Below are positions 2,336-58,101 of a stretch of DNA of 64,000 nt, piece by piece (the first letter of the stretch is position 1; each line of letters begins with the position of its first letter). The notes under the pieces are model-generated. The model was given only the letters and a program-made list of their open reading frames with translations. It made no database searches and had not been told where the DNA came from. The stretch is taken from positions 1,302,001 through 1,366,000 of the forward strand of contig NZ_CP073697.1 in assembly GCF_025264665.1 (NCBI RefSeq), read 5' to 3'. This stretch comes from Edaphobacter flagellatus (lineage in GTDB: Bacteria; Acidobacteriota; Terriglobia; Terriglobales; Acidobacteriaceae). Made by a program: the position numbers and the translations under genes.

Positions 2336-2361
2336 CCCGCACCCCCGGTAGGCTTGTTTAC

Positions 2362-2596
2362 AACCCATTTCTATTCAATGACTTATGCGTTTTCAACAAG
2401 CCAAAATATTGAATAGAAATGGGTTATCCGTAAAAATATTGATTCTAAAGGAGAAAGCCCCAACCGTTCCGGCTGGGGCTTTCTTCTTTCTTCCATCTAT
2501 TCCAGTCGACCGAAACGACCATAACTGATCGGCAGTTTTATGGAGCTTTATTTCTTTTGGAATGAGTAGTTTGCCATTTCAGGGGGGCTTGACAGA
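2362..2596 (-). repeat. Copy A of a ~230-bp structured dispersed element
   Basis: Read on the minus strand, this region aligns along nearly its whole length with the plus strand at 55812-56040. Shared blocks in order are CTGTCAAG-C(4-6)-TGAAAT (2595 downward), ACTCATT.CAAA, CTGCCGAT, a GC hairpin beginning AAGCCCC, an AATCAATATTTTT block and TCAATATTTT. The element ends in an inverted repeat whose two 18-nt arms (2362-2379 and 2408-2425) are perfectly complementary around a 28-nt loop. It fills the gap between the convergent histidine kinase and decarboxylase genes. No ORF is present. Confidence 0.75.
2454..2490. terminator. GC hairpin inside copy A, able to act as terminator for the histidine kinase gene
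   Basis: Arms AAAGCCCCAACC (2454-2465) and GGCTGGGGCTTT (2471-2482) flank the 5-nt loop GTTCC, and TCTTCTTTCTT follows on the plus strand. The single non-Watson-Crick position reads A-C on the plus strand but G-U on the minus strand. The hairpin is the core of the dispersed element described at 2362-2596. Confidence 0.75.
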
Positions 2597-23353: not shown

Positions 23354-23560
23354 CCCTGTCAAGCTCTCCGAGAATGCAAATCAGCTCGCATATCACGCCA
23401 ACTGACAGAATCGAAATAACTTGCCGCATCCATAGAGATGCGTCTCGAAGTGCCGATTCATTCCACTCCATTCGCTACAATAGAAGGAGTAGAGAAACAG
23501 TCCGGACACTGTGTCCGGACTGTTTCTTTTGCAGAATGAATACTTTGCAAACCTCCTCGC
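23354..23560 (+). repeat. Probable divergent copy C of the structured dispersed element
   Basis: Within the 356-bp gap before rimO, the blocks of the element at 55812-56040 recur in the same order but more diverged. They are CCTGTCAAGC (23355), AATGCAAATC, TGCCGATT-N9-CTC, TCGCTACAAT, a hairpin at 23493-23527 and GAATACTTTGCAAACC. The spacing CCGATT-N17-TACAAT is identical to CCGATT-N17-TATACT in copy B. The tail inverted repeat of copies A and B was not found here. The remainder of the gap, to 23693, holds nothing further that I recognise. Confidence 0.5.
23493..23527 (+). terminator. Near-perfect 35-bp palindrome, terminator-like
   Basis: Arms AGAAACAGTCCGGACAC (23493-23509) and GTGTCCGGACTGTTTCT (23511-23527) are perfectly complementary around a single central T. 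TTTGCAG follows. It lies 156 nt after the stop of the secreted-protein gene and about 12 nt after a TACAAT hexamer. It may therefore end a very short RNA rather than the upstream gene. Confidence 0.6.
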
Positions 23561-23693
23561 AGCGTTTTCAGGACTTCAGCTATGCCGCCGCCGGGGGTGC
23601 GCCTATAAGCCAATATTTATGAATACTTTGCGCAAATTCGAACGGAGTGGGGCGCGCAGCAGATACATCGAAAAACTGGTAAACTAGGAGGCT

Positions 23694-52199: not shown

Positions 52200-53369
52200 T
52201 TAGACTGCAATCGTAAAGCTGTCCTCGCTGCGAGTCACCGCACGGTACATCGTGTCCCGCTCAAACGGCACACGCCCCGCCTCCGTAATCAGCCGCACCA
52301 GATCCTTGCGCCGCAGCCCCTGCGGAGTCGTCGCGCCCGCATCGTGGTAGATCTTCTCTTCCACCACCGTGCCGTCGATATCGTCCGCGCCGAACCGTAG
52401 CGAGATCTGCGCCATCTTCGGCGACACCATCTGCCAGTAACTCTTGATGTGGGCAAAGTTATCCAGCATCAGGCGGCCAATCGCAATCTGCTTGATGTCC
52501 AGCATGCCCGTTGTCTTGGGAATATGCGCCAGCGCCGTATTGTCCGGATGGAACGACAGCGGAATAAATGTCTGGAACCCGCCCGTATCGTCCTGCACCT
52601 CGCGCAGCCGGATCATGTGGTCGACCCGGTCCTCATCGTTCTCGACATGCCCGTAAAGCATCGTCGCATTCGACCGCAAACCGATCTTGTGCGCCGTCCG
52701 CGCCGTCTCCAGCCACTCCGAGCCGTCAATCTTGTGATCACAGATGATGTGCCGTATCCGGTCGGCAAAAATCTCCGCGCCGCCTCCCGGCATCGAATCC
52801 ACACCCGCGGCCTTCATCCGCTCCAGCGTCTCCGGAATCGTCATCTTGCCGCGCTTGGCCAGAAACGCAACCTCGACCATCGTGAACGCCTTGATGTGGA
52901 CCTTCGGGAAGCGTTCCTTCAACCCGCGCACCAGGTCCATGAAGTACTCGAACGGCAGATCGGGATGCAGCCCGCCCACAATATGGAACTCCGTCACTGC
53001 CTCCGTATAGCCCTCGCCCGCCGCCGCCCAGGCTTCCTCGAGCGCCATCGTATACGTCCCCGCCTCGCCCTTCTTGCGCCCGAACGCGCACAGCCTGCAC
53101 GAGGCCACGCAGACATTCGTCGGATTGATATGGCGGTTCACATTGAAGTACGCCACATCCCCATGCAGCTTCTCGCGAACATAGTTCGCCAGCCAGCCCA
53201 CAGCCAGAATGTCGCCGCTGCGATACAGCGCCACCCCGTCGTCGAAGCTCAATCGCTCCCCGGCAAGCACCTTCTCTGCAATCGCACCCAGCGCCGGATC
53301 GTCCGTTTGAAAGGAGTGCCGCGGCTGCTGCGCCGCCTCCAGGCCACGCGTATTCGCCTCAAAGCTCAT
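52200..53369 (-). CDS. mqnE: Aminodeoxyfutalosine synthase (menaquinone biosynthesis)
   Basis: A 389-residue radical-SAM enzyme that couples 3-enolpyruvylbenzoate (the MqnA product) to SAM, yielding aminodeoxyfutalosine. The [4Fe-4S] motif is NPTNVCVASCRLCAF (Cys87, Cys91, Cys94). Family landmarks are FHIVGGLHPDLPFEYF, DSMPGGGAEIFADRIRH, which favours MqnE over MqnC, LRSNATMLYGHVENDEDRVDHM, and QTFIPLSFHPDNT followed by SYWQMVSPKMAQISLRFGADDIDGTV. With mqnA in the same window it shows that the organism uses the futalosine pathway. The genes are not clustered. A terminator follows. Confidence 0.94.
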   Translation of the reverse strand: MSFEANTRGLEAAQQPRHSFQTDDPALGAIAEKVLAGERLSFDDGVALYRSGDILAVGWLANYVREKLHGDVAYFNVNRHINPTNVCVASCRLCAFGRKKGEAGTYTMALEEAWAAAGEGYTEAVTEFHIVGGLHPDLPFEYFMDLVRGLKERFPKVHIKAFTMVEVAFLAKRGKMTIPETLERMKAAGVDSMPGGGAEIFADRIRHIICDHKIDGSEWLETARTAHKIGLRSNATMLYGHVENDEDRVDHMIRLREVQDDTGGFQTFIPLSFHPDNTALAHIPKTTGMLDIKQIAIGRLMLDNFAHIKSYWQMVSPKMAQISLRFGADDIDGTVVEEKIYHDAGATTPQGLRRKDLVRLITEAGRVPFERDTMYRAVTRSEDSFTIAV

Positions 53370-53406: not shown

Positions 53407-54954
53407 CTACGAAAGGGCCCAGCCGGAACGGTTTTGCCGCCGTATAAACGGCGCCGCCTGCGGACAATTTTTGGCAACCATCTTCGGGCCATCCCACTCG
53501 ATCTTCTGGCCAACACGCAACGACACGCAGCCCAGCAGCATGATCTCCGTCAACCGCGCGGCGACGTCAAAACGCGAGTAGCACATCTCCGGCTTGTTTT
53601 CCTTGATGGCAACGAGCCATTCCTGTGCATGCGCAACAACACCATTCCCCTCATGACGATTCCGCAGAATCCGCTCCGGATACTGCGCCATGGCCGGATG
53701 CTTGAGGTAGTTGACGAATTTCTCTTCGCCCTTCAATTTGATGAAGAAATTCGTCCCATAATCGTCCGGCGAAAACACCATACCTCCCTCGCCAATCAGC
53801 AGACAGCCGCTATCCGGAACCTTGCCCTGCAGCGCCACGATATCCGCCGTCAGTTCGATCGGAGGCTTGTTGCTCAGGTCATGGCCACCACGGGCTGCCG
53901 GGTCAGGCTGGCCGCCGTCATACCACCACAGCGTCACCGCATCGTGCTCGATCTTCCTGTAATGGTGAAAAAGATGCGGATGCTCAAGCGGAATGCGGCC
54001 CTGGCGCTTCGGAAAATCGAACCGAATCTTGGACCCGACGGGATACGATTCCTTATTCATCTGGCCGAAGGGCATCGCTTCAATCGTCGTCGGGTGATCG
54101 AGATCTAAAGCGCGAAACGGCATATTCACCGTATGGCAGGCCATATCGCCCAGCGCACCCGTACCGAAATCCTGCCACCCACGCCAGTTGAACGGCTCGT
54201 AAACTCCTGCCTTCGGATTGCTGCCTCCCTTATAGGGCCGCATCGGCGCAGGCCCAATCCAGACATCCCAGTCCAGCGTCGCAGGAACCGGGTCTTCTCC
54301 CACGGGACGCTCCATCGCCTGCGGCCAGACCGGGCGGTTCGTCCAGACATGAACCTCATGCACCTGACCGATAAGTCCGTCCTGAATCGTCTCCACCGCG
54401 CGGCGCAAACCGTCCGAGGCGCTGCCCTGGTTGCCCATCTGCGTAACGATCTTTCTCTTGTGGGCCATCTCCCGCAGATAACGCGCCTCATAGATCGTTT
54501 GCGTCAATGGCTTCTGGCAAAACACCGCCTTGTTCCTCTTCATAGCCGCCGACGCCACAATCGCATGCATATGATCCGGCGTCGAAACCGTCACCGCATC
54601 GATCCGGTCGCCCATCTGATCCAGCATCTGCCGAAAATCCTTGTAAAACTTCGCATTCGGATATTTCTTCGTCTGCGTCTGATACGCCTCCGAACCCGTA
54701 TCCACATCGCACAACGCGACGATATTCTCGCCCGCACAGGCATCCGTATCGCTCCGGCCTTTTCCTCCAACGCCGATGCAGGCAATGTTCAATTTGCTGT
54801 TGAGGTTCTGTCCGCGCAAAAACGCAGGCGCACCAAGCACGAGAGCACCGGCAGCCAGAGAACTCGTTTTGATAAATTCACGACGATCGACACGCGACAG
54901 CGCAGCGGTCTCAGGAGCGTTCACAGAGGATAATTTTTCAGATGGTTTCGACAC
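53407..54954 (-). CDS. Tat-exported Gfo/Idh/MocA-family oxidoreductase (second copy)
   Basis: A protein of about 515 residues with a twin-arginine signal (VDRREFIKTSSLAAGALVLG). A Rossmann domain follows (LNIACIGVGGKGRSD, DAVTVSTPDHMHAIVASAAMKRNKAVFCQKPLTQ), in which the usual EKP is QKP. The catalytic Lys is kept. The C-terminal domain has NWRGWQDFGTGALGDMACHTVN, diagnostic of the large exported subgroup. The start is uncertain: GTG at 54954, GTG at 54924 or an ATG at 55041 are all in frame, and none has a strong ribosome site. The first places the Tat motif about 20 residues from the N-terminus. It shares its family with the gene at 32566 but is longer and not a tandem duplicate. Confidence 0.9.
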   Translation of the reverse strand: MSKPSEKLSSVNAPETAALSRVDRREFIKTSSLAAGALVLGAPAFLRGQNLNSKLNIACIGVGGKGRSDTDACAGENIVALCDVDTGSEAYQTQTKKYPNAKFYKDFRQMLDQMGDRIDAVTVSTPDHMHAIVASAAMKRNKAVFCQKPLTQTIYEARYLREMAHKRKIVTQMGNQGSASDGLRRAVETIQDGLIGQVHEVHVWTNRPVWPQAMERPVGEDPVPATLDWDVWIGPAPMRPYKGGSNPKAGVYEPFNWRGWQDFGTGALGDMACHTVNMPFRALDLDHPTTIEAMPFGQMNKESYPVGSKIRFDFPKRQGRIPLEHPHLFHHYRKIEHDAVTLWWYDGGQPDPAARGGHDLSNKPPIELTADIVALQGKVPDSGCLLIGEGGMVFSPDDYGTNFFIKLKGEEKFVNYLKHPAMAQYPERILRNRHEGNGVVAHAQEWLVAIKENKPEMCYSRFDVAARLTEIMLLGCVSLRVGQKIEWDGPKMVAKNCPQAAPFIRRQNRSGWALS

Positions 54955-55070
54955 GCGCCCAGAATACACTGCCCCGACATTCTGAGCGTGGTGGATCAAC
55001 AGATCGAAACCGAGTGTGCAACCATGGATTCCTGCATCCATGCGTCACCCACCCGTAGTGTTATTTCGCG

Positions 55071-55472
55071 TCAGCCCATCTTCCGAACCCACTGACTCCG
55101 CCATGCAGGAGCCTCGAAGGGGTCAGCGAAATATTGTGTCTCGTGCACAACCTTGCCATCCCGAAACTCCATGATGCTGACCGTGTATGCCGGTCGTCCC
55201 TGATAGAGAATCGTGTACTCCGTAACCCAAAGATTGCCGCCTCCGAGAATTCGTCTTACCTCGAAACCCGATGGCTTACCCGGATGATGACTTCGCAGAG
55301 CCTGTAAATTTCTTCGCCCCACGATGCGTTCGCCCGACTGTGGATAGTCACAAATTGCATCGTCCGCGTAAATATCGTGCTCTGCCTCCGCATCGCCTGC
55401 TGCCGACGCGCGCCAATGTTGGTCGAGAGCCTTCTGTATCTGTTCCTGATCTGGAGAATATTCGTTTGTCAT
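55071..55472 (-). CDS. SnoaL/NTF2-like small protein
   Basis: A 133-residue cone-shaped alpha+beta fold protein. The pattern QIQKALDQHWRASAAGDAEAEHDIYADDAICDYPQSGERIVGRRNLQALR and the later TVSIMEFRDGKVVHETQYFADPFEAPAWR are typical of SnoaL-like domains. These act as small isomerases, hydrolases or ligand-binding proteins. No catalytic assignment is possible. It stands alone upstream of the oxidoreductase at 53407 on the same strand. Confidence 0.85.
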   Translation of the reverse strand: MTNEYSPDQEQIQKALDQHWRASAAGDAEAEHDIYADDAICDYPQSGERIVGRRNLQALRSHHPGKPSGFEVRRILGGGNLWVTEYTILYQGRPAYTVSIMEFRDGKVVHETQYFADPFEAPAWRSQWVRKMG

Positions 55473-55811: not shown

Positions 55812-56040
55812 TTCCTGTCAAGCCCCTGAAATTTGCATCTCACTCATTTCAAAGCCAATAGAACGCCAAAAATCTGCCGATTAGTTTCCCTCGCCTCGCT
55901 ATACTTAAACCAGTCGAATCAAATAAAGAAGCCCCGACCTTTTAGTCGGGGCTTAACTCTTTATAAATCAATATTTTTGCACTTAAACCATCTGTTTCCA
56001 ATATTTTACCCTGTGCAAATCGCACAAGCCATTGAAAACA
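55812..56040 (+). repeat. Copy B of the ~230-bp structured dispersed element
   Basis: This is the best-preserved copy. In order it holds CCTGTCAAGCCCCTGAAAT, ACTCATTTCAAAG, CTGCCGATT, and a -10-like TATACT (55900-55905) exactly 17 nt after CCGATT. A GC hairpin follows at 55929-55954 (AAGCCCCGAC / GTCGGGGCTT, 6-nt loop), then AATCAATATTTTTG. The tail inverted repeat TGTTTCCAAT (55993-56002) and ATTGAAAACA (56031-56040) pairs at 9 of 10 positions around a 28-nt loop, the same loop length as copy A. It lies between the SnoaL-like gene and the 3' end of the propeller gene. Confidence 0.8.
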
Positions 56041-56073
56041 GGCTGCTTTCCCGTCCACCCTGGGGGGAGGGGG

Positions 56074-58101
56074 TTAGTGCTTCACCTCGGCCGAGTTCGT
56101 CATCTCCGGTTGGATCACGATACCGTCAAACATCGTCGCACCCACCAGGTGATCGCCCACCGGACGCACAAGACGCATGTTCCATCCCGTGTTCCAGTAG
56201 GTCACCTTCTTGTCCGGAAGATGCGCGGCAAAGACCAGCGTCGTCGGGCTGTTTGCTGTCACCAGCACCCGCTCTCCGCGCTCGTCGTAGAAGATGTTGT
56301 TCACGTCGCGCATAAAGAGGTTCTGCACAATGTGCCAGCTTGCGCCCTTGTCCTCCGAGAGGTAAACGCCTTCGCGGCCGCCGATCCAGAGTCCGCCGAA
56401 ACCATCGACGGCGACCGCCGCAATCTGCGTCAGCTCCGATGGAGGCGTCACCGGAGTCCACGTTTTACCGCCGTCCGAAGTCAGCTCCGCCTTCGAAAGC
56501 GAAGCCGCAAACGTCACGCCCTTCTGCGACGCGACCGCGTACCACAGGTGACCCTGCGGATCGGCCGCCAGCGCCCAGCTCTGGCCCGAATCCGTGCTCT
56601 TCAGAATCCCGGCAGACGTCGCAGCATAAATCGCATCGCCATCGCGCGTGAAAGCAAAAACCGTTCCATCAAATGGCTTCGCTGCAGGCTTCACAACCTT
56701 CTTTACCGGAGCCTTCGCAACTGGCTTGCGCGCGCCCTTCCTGGTCGCAACAACCGGCTTCGCGACAGCAGGAGTCTCTACAACCGGAAGCTCCAGCGAG
56801 ACCTTCTCCACCTTCGTCCACGTTGGACCGGCCAGCCGATAGATTCCGTGACGCGTTCCCGCAACCAGAGAACCATCCGGAGCCTGACCAAGACTGAAGA
56901 CGTCATGCGCCTCAAGCCCGGCATTCTTCTGTGTCCACGTCATTCCACCATTGCTGCTGACGAAAACGCCGCCCCACGCCTTGTCGTTCACCAAACCAAC
57001 ATAGATCGTGTTCGGCTGACGCTGGTCTTCGACATACGACGTAATCTGACGCGACGAAAATCCTGCATTCGCAGGCTTGAAGCTCGCGCCGCCATCGTTC
57101 GAAACCAGAACACCACCACGATCCGTTGCCAGCAGAACACGATTCGTGTCCGTCGGATTGATGTAGACATCATTGACGATCAACTCAGGCCCCGACATGC
57201 GAACCCACGTCTTGCCCGAGTCCACCGTGCGATAAAGACCTTCCGTCGTGCCCGCAAAGACGATGTTCTGGTGCTGCGGATCCTGCATCAGCACGCGCGT
57301 ACGACGCGCCGTCGAAGGAATTCCCTGGATCTTATGAAATACAGAGCCTAAGTCTTCGCTCTTATAAATACCCGAGCATGCACTCGCATACATAACGCCC
57401 GGGTTTACCGGATCGATGATGATCGAGAAGACATCGGAATCATCAATCACACCATTCTTCGACGTGATGTTGCTCCAGGTCACGCCGCCATCCGTTGTCT
57501 TCCATGGAAGATGCCATGTGCCGGCAAAGATGATCTTCGGATTTTTGGGATCGATCGCAACTGACTCGACCTCATGAATCTCGGTGCTTCCCGGAGGGCT
57601 GATCAGCGTCCAGTGCGCGCCACTGTCATTCGATTGATAGACTCCCTTGAGCGTACCGGCAACGAACATCTTCGGATCAGAGGCAGCGTTCGCCAGAGCA
57701 AGGACCGACTGCCCCTTCAGCTCGGGAATCGTCTTCCAGGTCACACCCGCATCATCGCTGGTGAAGAGATCGCCAACCTGACCGCCAAGCACCCACGCAC
57801 CAACCATGACGTGGTTGGTATTGAGCGGATCGACCACGATCGAATCCAGTACCAGATCATCGCGCTTGCCGACCCGCGCAAGACGCTTCCACTCTGCGCC
57901 TTCATTGTGCGACTCGTAAATCCAGCCGTTCGCGGTGCCGAGATACAGATGGTTCTTGTCGTGTGGATCGGCAGCAATCGAGCGCGCATCTCCACCATCC
58001 GGTCCAAAAGGCAGCCAGCCTGTTACTGCAGCCTGAGAATGGAAGACGGGAAGAAACAGAATAGAAAGGAGGGCAACGAGGGATATCCGGTTGGTTCGCA
58101 T
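56074..58101 (-). CDS. Secreted BNR/sortilin-like beta-propeller protein
   Basis: A 675-residue exported protein with a signal peptide (ISLVALLSILFLPVFHSQA). It consists of about ten BNR/Asp-box type repeats of the Ycf48/VPS10 style, recurring as SDDAGVTW, SNDSGAHW, TTDGGVTW, TVDSGKTW, SNDGGASF, SSNGGMTW, STDSGQSW, TSDGGKTW and SEDKGASW. These form one or two propellers. A basic Lys/Pro/Ala linker (KPVVATRKGARKPVAKAPVKK) divides the repeats near residue 450. It lacks glycosidase catalytic residues visible by eye and is probably a scaffold or adhesion protein. The start ATG at 58101 has only a weak ribosome site. Confidence 0.85.
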   Translation of the reverse strand: MRTNRISLVALLSILFLPVFHSQAAVTGWLPFGPDGGDARSIAADPHDKNHLYLGTANGWIYESHNEGAEWKRLARVGKRDDLVLDSIVVDPLNTNHVMVGAWVLGGQVGDLFTSDDAGVTWKTIPELKGQSVLALANAASDPKMFVAGTLKGVYQSNDSGAHWTLISPPGSTEIHEVESVAIDPKNPKIIFAGTWHLPWKTTDGGVTWSNITSKNGVIDDSDVFSIIIDPVNPGVMYASACSGIYKSEDLGSVFHKIQGIPSTARRTRVLMQDPQHQNIVFAGTTEGLYRTVDSGKTWVRMSGPELIVNDVYINPTDTNRVLLATDRGGVLVSNDGGASFKPANAGFSSRQITSYVEDQRQPNTIYVGLVNDKAWGGVFVSSNGGMTWTQKNAGLEAHDVFSLGQAPDGSLVAGTRHGIYRLAGPTWTKVEKVSLELPVVETPAVAKPVVATRKGARKPVAKAPVKKVVKPAAKPFDGTVFAFTRDGDAIYAATSAGILKSTDSGQSWALAADPQGHLWYAVASQKGVTFAASLSKAELTSDGGKTWTPVTPPSELTQIAAVAVDGFGGLWIGGREGVYLSEDKGASWHIVQNLFMRDVNNIFYDERGERVLVTANSPTTLVFAAHLPDKKVTYWNTGWNMRLVRPVGDHLVGATMFDGIVIQPEMTNSAEVKH

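Follow-up and report, generated by a model that had tools for sequence, protein, structure and literature searches.

Two intergenic segments on opposite strands of the Edaphobacter flagellatus chromosome resemble each other and raise the question of what kind of element they are. An earlier note on this DNA had proposed either a family of structured RNA genes or a MITE-like element with its own promoter and terminator. Both segments lie within the window (the whole 64,000-nucleotide stretch that was analysed). We suggest, with a probability of about 0.52, that the segments belong to a new family of small, non-coding, non-autonomous mobile elements of Acidobacteriaceae, which carry phased recombinase-type sites and rest 3' of genes.

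The sense strand is here the strand on which the earlier note had read the two segments, plus for copy B and minus for copy A. A covariance model (R1) was built from an alignment (A1) of 43 copies, namely A, B and 41 further ones. Homology of the two copies over their whole length was confirmed with this model (240.8 bits for B and 202.3 bits for A, values that are partly circular because R1 was built in part from them), and the conserved blocks that had been named, their order and their near-constant spacing are present in both. The bounds first given, 55812-56040 and 2362-2596, do enclose element sequence, but its true extent is wider. Moreover, a third and diverged copy (C) was found in the window. 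The features are as follows, with copy B in the order of its sense strand.

55814-56073, plus strand: copy B, whole element; R1 match 55814-56076, its end GGGGGGAGGGGG adjoining the stop codon at 56074-56076
55816-55826, plus strand: copy B, 5' block TGTCAAGCCCC
55875-55905, plus strand: copy B, putative promoter-like box TGCCGAT-18-TATACT, from sequence, with the 18-nt spacing common in the family
55929-55954, plus strand: copy B, hairpin 1, terminator-like, from folding and pair counts
55966-55977, plus strand: copy B, word 1, AATCAATATTTT, from sequence and spacing
56000-56009, plus strand: copy B, word 2, AATATTTTAC, 30 bp past word 1 and 62 bp ahead of the G-run
55992-56041, plus strand: copy B, hairpin 2, inner TGTGC/GCACA, from folding
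56062-56073, plus strand: copy B, 3' terminal G-run, at 0 nt from the stop (TTA) of the minus-strand gene 56074-58101
2336-2596, minus strand: copy A, whole element; R1 match 2334-2596, abutting the TAG of the plus-strand gene 839-2335
2528-2534, minus strand: copy A, TGCCGAT; the -10 position 18 nt further on is TCGACT (degenerate)
2450-2484, minus strand: copy A, hairpin 1, from folding
2361-2423, minus strand: copy A, hairpin 2, long; the stretch that holds both hairpins folds with z of -10.3 on the sense strand and -9.1 on the other
2403-2444, minus strand: copy A, words 1 and 2, 30 bp apart, from sequence
2336-2346, minus strand: copy A, 3' terminal G-rich run, from sequence
about 23355-23657, plus strand: copy C; partial R1 matches with E of 2.4e-4 and 0.09

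Copy C is made up of CTGTCAAGC, GTGCCGAT-18-TACAAT, a hairpin with a T-tract, two AATACTTTGC words and GGAGTGGGG.

The family to which these copies belong is non-coding and its members are about 250-260 bp long. The earlier note had taken the segments for a dispersed element, and covariance model and BLAST searches of the genome and its relatives did find further copies. In the 4,445,627-bp (4.45-Mb) chromosome there are at least 103 R1 matches (E <= 0.01; 150 of 558 first-look candidates scored), 95 of which entered the per-copy analyses. Copy B as a BLAST query gave 42 matches within its own genome, and since it is only about 70-80% identical to them no recent jump was caught. Open reading frames are not longer than in shuffled sequences, the longest ATG ORF having a median of 21 aa against 36 when shuffled, and a coding element was rejected on these lengths.

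Within the genus, R1 matches were found in 22 of 25 genomes (21 of the 24 others), and their number varies from none to more than 100, a comparison in which R1, being built on the own genome, favours that genome. In a sample of 120 genomes of the family at least 26, own included, match R1 (E <= 0.001, with strict filters and at most 17 candidates scored per genome), and 19 of the 79 genera are represented among them. The named carriers are mainly Edaphobacter and Granulicella, with Acidobacteriaceae KBS 89 and metagenome bins in addition. Outside the genus, one of 16 further genomes of the order or class gave a weak match (L096, E 0.007), which by eye was unconvincing as a copy. A relaxed pattern search of genome contigs returned 25 stretches, of which 21 loci match R1; the other four were dropped, three of them being bins from other phyla. 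A plasmid or phage origin was rejected. The plasmid search gave no match to the element, and that of phages one short match in a Pseudomonas phage (20% of the query, E 2e-3), which was taken as unrelated, as were 16 stretches obtained from viral contigs with the pattern, which match R1 only weakly and in part (best 15.2 bits).

Read 5' to 3' on the sense strand, the element comprises TGTCAAGYCCC, the box TGCCGAT-18-TANNNT, hairpin 1 and the AT-rich words; the main class has hairpin 2 next, and the G-run is terminal. The 5' block TGTCAAGYCCC occurs at 85 exact places in the genome, against one for the reversed control. Of these, 83 lie within 110 nt of a same-strand R1 match and another lies in a weak copy recognised by eye, making 84 of 85, the last being unrelated; as far as was seen, none belongs to a longer, gene-bearing copy. 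The gap between TGCCGAT and TANNNT is exactly 18 nt in 73 of the 95 copies and 19 nt in four, and in the rest it is different or was not found. The promoter-like boxes reported earlier do not fully hold for copy A, where the -10 word is degenerate. GGGGGAGGGG is found at 61 places, of which 55 have an R1 match no more than 60 nt away, one belongs to a further weak copy and five are elsewhere. For the G-run pattern the reversed control is uninformative, as the reversed word is nearly identical.

The words, counted with a strict pattern, number none, one, two, three and four in 3, 12, 43, 14 and 1 of 73 own-genome copies. Successive words are separated by 30 bp in 51 cases and by 41-42 bp in 14, and the last word precedes the G-run by 60-65 bp in at least 48 copies and by 18 or 20 bp in at least 10. 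A third word is missing or unrecognised in most own-genome copies, and 60-65 bp corresponds to 41 plus about 20. The 20 copies of genome G023 have a word distance of 29-30 bp 16 times. In genus g40 (G135/G071; 20 copies) three words are present in 14 copies, with distances of 29 bp (17 times) and 40 bp (15 times), and in 15 the distance from the last word to the G-run is 17 bp. In 21 of 30 loci, from four further genera, the distances are 29-30 bp (13) and 40-42 bp (12). Among 35 loci of other genomes the strict pattern found no word in 13, one in 12 and two or more in only 10. The words themselves vary by genus (AATATTTT, AATACTTT, AAGACTTT, ACGATTTT) at constant spacing. Judged from sequence, a spacing that is kept across genera while the words change suggests protein-DNA binding sites.

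The stretch between the promoter-like box and the words is wholly different among diverged copies, and in some genera the 3' module occurs without the TGTCAAG block. At loci of G065 such as L357, L354 and L338, inspected by eye, a TTGACA..TATA-type box stands in place of that block ahead of the 3' word module.

Both hairpins described in the earlier note are present in A and in B (fold z on the sense strand -10.3 and -3.6, respectively). Their arms differ and still pair, as had been said: in A1 75.1% of the cells are paired, whereas column shuffles give 70.8% and slid partners no more than 52.2%. Compensatory pairs were also looked for, and both-sided changes were found at 16 of the 20 tested pairs, somewhere among the 43 copies; this count does not tell RNA from DNA, and related sequences can exceed shuffles. 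Helix 1 is paired in 89.7% of the cells, compared with 58.8% for the outer and 74.8% for the inner part of helix 2, so that hairpin 2 is the less general of the two. The region of hairpin 1 could be cut in 68 of 73 copies tried, and in 60 of these 68 the hairpin beats composition shuffles (z < -2); it is lost in some copies, with z >= -2 in eight.

The strand asymmetry pointed out in copy A, where a pair is G-U on one strand and A-C on the other, did not prove to be a feature of the family. Over three helices and 43 copies there are 66 G-U and 52 A-C cells, with no overall strand bias; helix 3 favours the sense strand (37 G-U against 8 A-C), but in helix 1 (13 and 17) and helix 2 (16 and 27) the A-C cells are the more numerous. 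The layout of an intrinsic terminator, a GC hairpin followed by a T-tract, is present, and averaged over own-genome copies the opposite strand has the richer T-tract: the 9 nt ahead of hairpin 1 hold a mean of 5.0 A, that is an opposite-strand T-tract, and the 9 nt past the hairpin 3.2 T. At gathering thresholds Rfam recognised in the window only an SRP RNA and a tRNA and nothing in the element, and four loci carrying copies gave 12 matches at E <= 10, all far below gathering. A known RNA family was accordingly rejected for the window and these four loci.

The G-rich ends of copies A and B each adjoin the stop codon of a convergent gene. Two simple methods of calling gene orientation disagree, and for this reason abutment was counted on confidently scored genes only. 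The gene downstream of the 95 copies is confidently antisense in 45, sense in 29 and neither in 21. In the 45 antisense cases G-run and stop codon touch (0 nt) in 17 and are 1 nt apart in 8; altogether 34 fall within 0-7 nt, not counting copy B, which was scored at -6 because the G-run pattern overran into its stop codon. On the control side, the stop of a co-directional upstream gene lies 0-7 nt from the 5' end in 2 of 48. In other genomes 23 of 55 loci have such an antisense gene, and its stop is within 0-7 nt in 14. The abutment is looser in genus g40, where 10 of 20 copies have an antisense gene and for only three of these does the stop fall between -2 and 7 nt from the model end.

In the 44 copies with an abutting stop, 34 of which are confident, this stop is TAG in 25, TGA in 15 and TAA in 4. 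The ORFs of the window, a small and simply called set (n = 33), use TAA in 18, TAG in 8 and TGA in 7, and without the two ORFs that abut A and B the difference has a Fisher p of 0.004 for TAG and 2e-5 for TAA. By a noisy call over the 95 copies, the convergent setting is the commonest (33) and the divergent one the rarest of those determined (9), and the downstream gene points away from the element in 40. A common neighbour gene was rejected as explanation, an all-against-all comparison of flanking ORFs showing few shared flanks in the own genome apart from repeat-derived ORFs. In 28 loci from 22 other genomes fabG is abutted four times (TIGR01830 above cut-off for one, short-chain dehydrogenase domains in all four).

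The surroundings of copy B were compared with relatives of the genus. The gene that it abuts is present in fifteen other genomes, and in the 14 of them whose downstream DNA was inspected, by eye, no element was seen behind it. In those 14, DNA of an MqnC/CofH-type radical-SAM gene adjoins the counterpart of copy B's gene. The window has this radical-SAM gene 2.7 kb away, with two genes and copy B between; the match was obtained with the longest, antisense frame of the stretch as query and coincides in the window with the gene 52200-53369 (Pfam). The two genes at 53407-55472, for a GFO/IDH/MocA oxidoreductase and a SnoaL-like protein, together with copy B split two genes that are neighbours in the relatives, and the whole looks like a lineage-specific gain.

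A broader comparison was made with G010, taken as the closest relative on a single protein (84%), the one abutted by copy B. This genome has three R1 matches. In 1.01 Mb of it 16 orthologous sites were found with both flanks, and the one R1 match there falls outside all 16 gaps. In seven of them G010 is 206-283 bp shorter, about the length of an element (566223, 1586339, 1613486, 3481774, 3567640, 3792676 and 3973381); at 3481774 its sequence contains a run of N, and at 1613486 it has a hairpin in common with the own genome. The gap at 452522 is shorter by about 370 bp; at 469645, 576858, 948710 and 976541 G010 is without 0.7-1.4 kb including the element, and at 1446203, 1626108 and 3245617 it is longer. 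At 469645 (L015, compared with L290 of G010) the element and the abutted gene are missing together, as if gained as a unit. Some copies are old and have counterparts in G010: the gap at 2214772 holds an apparent decayed relative below the R1 threshold, and at 4318374 the two species share a copy at the corresponding gene end.

At all six junctions compared (1357814, 1586339, 3792676, 3973381, 566223 and 4318374, the G010 stop at 3792676 being read by eye) the last residue of the protein is in the same place in the two species, and therefore the element meets the ancestral stop position. In G010 a different hairpin, also terminator-like, occupies the gap at 1586339. For 99 of the 124 copies placed on a tree, the closest neighbour comes from the same genome (68 of 70 in the own genome, 17 of 20 in G023), and the copies beside fabG in four genomes do not group. 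This clustering by genome fits repeated lineage-specific spread.

Fixed word spacing, a sharp terminus, the lack of coding capacity and lineage-specific spread lead us to propose a non-autonomous mobile element served by an enzyme in trans. Several genera show a set of three words with distances of 29 and 40-41 bp, and the last of them stands about 17-20 bp ahead of the terminal G-run; most own-genome copies have two recognisable words, the second 60-65 bp from the G-run, which would leave room for a third, unrecognised site. On this proposal a recombinase acting in trans would bind the words as helically phased sites, and the end to be joined would be that of the G-run. The element would spread within a genome and settle right behind genes, in many cases with its G-run touching the stop codon, and its insertion would replace or displace the old 3' region and leave the protein untouched. 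It would bring along a terminator-like hairpin that could end transcription of the abutted gene, and a promoter-like box that may be active. No recombinase for the element was found.

The abutment could arise by targeting or by loss of spacer after insertion, and the sharp peak at 0-1 nt argues for targeting, though it is no proof. A more specific form of the proposal, which we hold to be distinctly unlikely, is a new mobile class guided to the 3' ends of translated genes, with the G-run joined behind any stop by a recombinase that binds three phased sites and perhaps senses the state of translation termination or of the mRNA end (for example through an RNA intermediate) and not DNA sequence. 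If the abutment is due to targeting, mobile DNA of this kind would land without damage to genes while rewriting their 3' ends, and some of the turnover of 3' regions in an abundant soil phylum might be explained in that way. With words at such a fixed spacing, the predicted binding protein should be findable.

The position behind genes can also be read from the abutting gene, as a stop codon, C-rich tract, hairpin 2, hairpin 1 and U-tract, that is as a 3' UTR with intrinsic terminator. The element would then be a portable 3'-end module, kept by selection and spread by ordinary recombination or duplication, with no dedicated enzyme. The abutment of opposite-strand stops, the richer T-tract of that strand, a hairpin maintained despite changing arms and the prevalence of the convergent setting all agree with this; nevertheless we consider it somewhat unlikely, as the downstream gene points away from the element in many copies (29 confidently), hairpin 1 is lost in some, and the word spacing and the 5' block are left unexplained. 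Small structured RNA genes on the sense strand, running from TGCCGAT-18-TANNNT to hairpin 1 or into the repeats, appear to us improbable. Such genes would account for the constant -35/-10-like spacing, for the hairpin with covariation and for the TTGACA..TATA-type boxes seen by eye ahead of the same 3' module in another genus, but a hairpin so shortly past the presumed start would leave little RNA, the stretch from box to words is not kept among diverged copies, and Rfam recognised nothing of the element in the window or the four loci. The RNA gene family put forward in the earlier note is not established, given that pairing has no overall strand preference (helix 3 alone favouring the sense strand), that the T-tract is richer on the opposite strand and that the words change at kept spacing.

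Alternatively, the words might be phased sites bound by a nucleoid or chromosome-organising protein, selection having spread the copies. This would suit the fixed word spacing and the orientation of the copies, which agrees with the replication arms in 63-65 of 95 if the boundary is put at 2.5-2.6 Mb, where dnaA lies. This boundary was chosen partly on the data (58-62 of 95 with a boundary at 1.8-2.4 Mb) and the bias could follow gene orientation; the spread from no match to more than 100 within one genus, under a model that favours the own genome, makes this explanation very doubtful. Scarcely credible are repeats of the REP/BIME type moved by a RAYT (Y1 transposase). These too are extragenic, palindromic and near gene ends, and their termini are reported to supply, in many cases, the TAG stop of flanking ORFs (PMC3733652). 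Against them stand the length of the element, about 250 bp, and the absence of a 20-40 bp palindrome tagged GTAG from the alignment of 43 copies, inspected by eye. In addition, Y1_Tnp (PF01797) had no match in the own genome (G000) nor in G002, G011 and G014, which hold 45, 11 and 44 R1 matches. A REP/RAYT origin was rejected for the own genome on this ground, and only a lost RAYT could rescue it.

The preferred reading, a mobile element served in trans, departs from the classical MITE. Many dispersed non-coding copies, about 100 in this genome, clustering by genome and element-free orthologous sites largely uphold the MITE-like part of the first proposal, but terminal inverted repeats were not found (without gaps the ends agree at best in 9.57 of 25 positions on average, against 9.61 after shuffling, in copies above 140 bits) and target duplication did not reach significance (longest shared flank word with a mean of 2.16 against 1.76 shuffled, 6.8% of shuffles being as high, p = 0.07, 61 copies). 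A classical MITE was rejected in view of these results, and the promoter and terminator activity also proposed is a prediction from the boxes and the hairpin. The ends of Tn7-, Mu- and IS21-like transposons carry several transposase-binding direct repeats at a fixed distance from the terminus. The element resembles them in its repeats at fixed distance and differs from them in that no TGT..ACA ends and no significant target duplication were seen and no transposase was identified. In integron gene cassettes the structured attC site directly follows the stop codon of the gene; here likewise a structured site lies directly behind a stop codon, but in dispersed single copies.

Bacterial MITEs and small repeats (Correia/NEMIS, RUP, YPAL and others) are, according to the review PMC2229807, likewise small, non-coding, intergenic, dispersed and structured, sometimes with putative promoters, and presumed to be moved in trans, as we propose for the element. 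Compared with that account, the element is about 250 bp instead of less than 200, without a terminal inverted repeat or significant target duplication, and has a one-sided array of spaced words, a G-run terminus and frequent stop-codon abutment. The TAG stops given by REP termini (PMC3733652) are the nearest parallel found to this abutment; REP/BIME sequences share with the element the extragenic palindromes beside gene ends, and differ in length and GTAG tag, the element having internal AT-rich words and its own genome no Y1 transposase. The CCUCCUCCC-motif small RNAs (so titled in Rfam) such as CcsR1 (RF02791) may be mentioned, the strand opposite to the G-run being also C-rich beside the stop; the sole RF02791 match (15.7 bits, gathering 65.3) is at L012 246-315, off the element. 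In titles and the beginnings of abstracts, mostly from journals without subscription, no published description of the family was recognised.

Some further observations concern the surroundings of the copies. The same genes stand beside copies in different species with differing orientation, as at L093 and 904556 of the own genome and at L094 and 1128506. At C1:3671968-3672364 of the own genome (L120) two copies overlap in what is a local tandem duplication (about 175 bp). There is also a second repeat, a modular GC-rich mosaic with the ending ..GGAGCGAAAACG, which flanks at least 13 strong copies on their 5' side and is met again in blocks; L024, L013, L021 and L005 are among the loci that show it upstream of copies.
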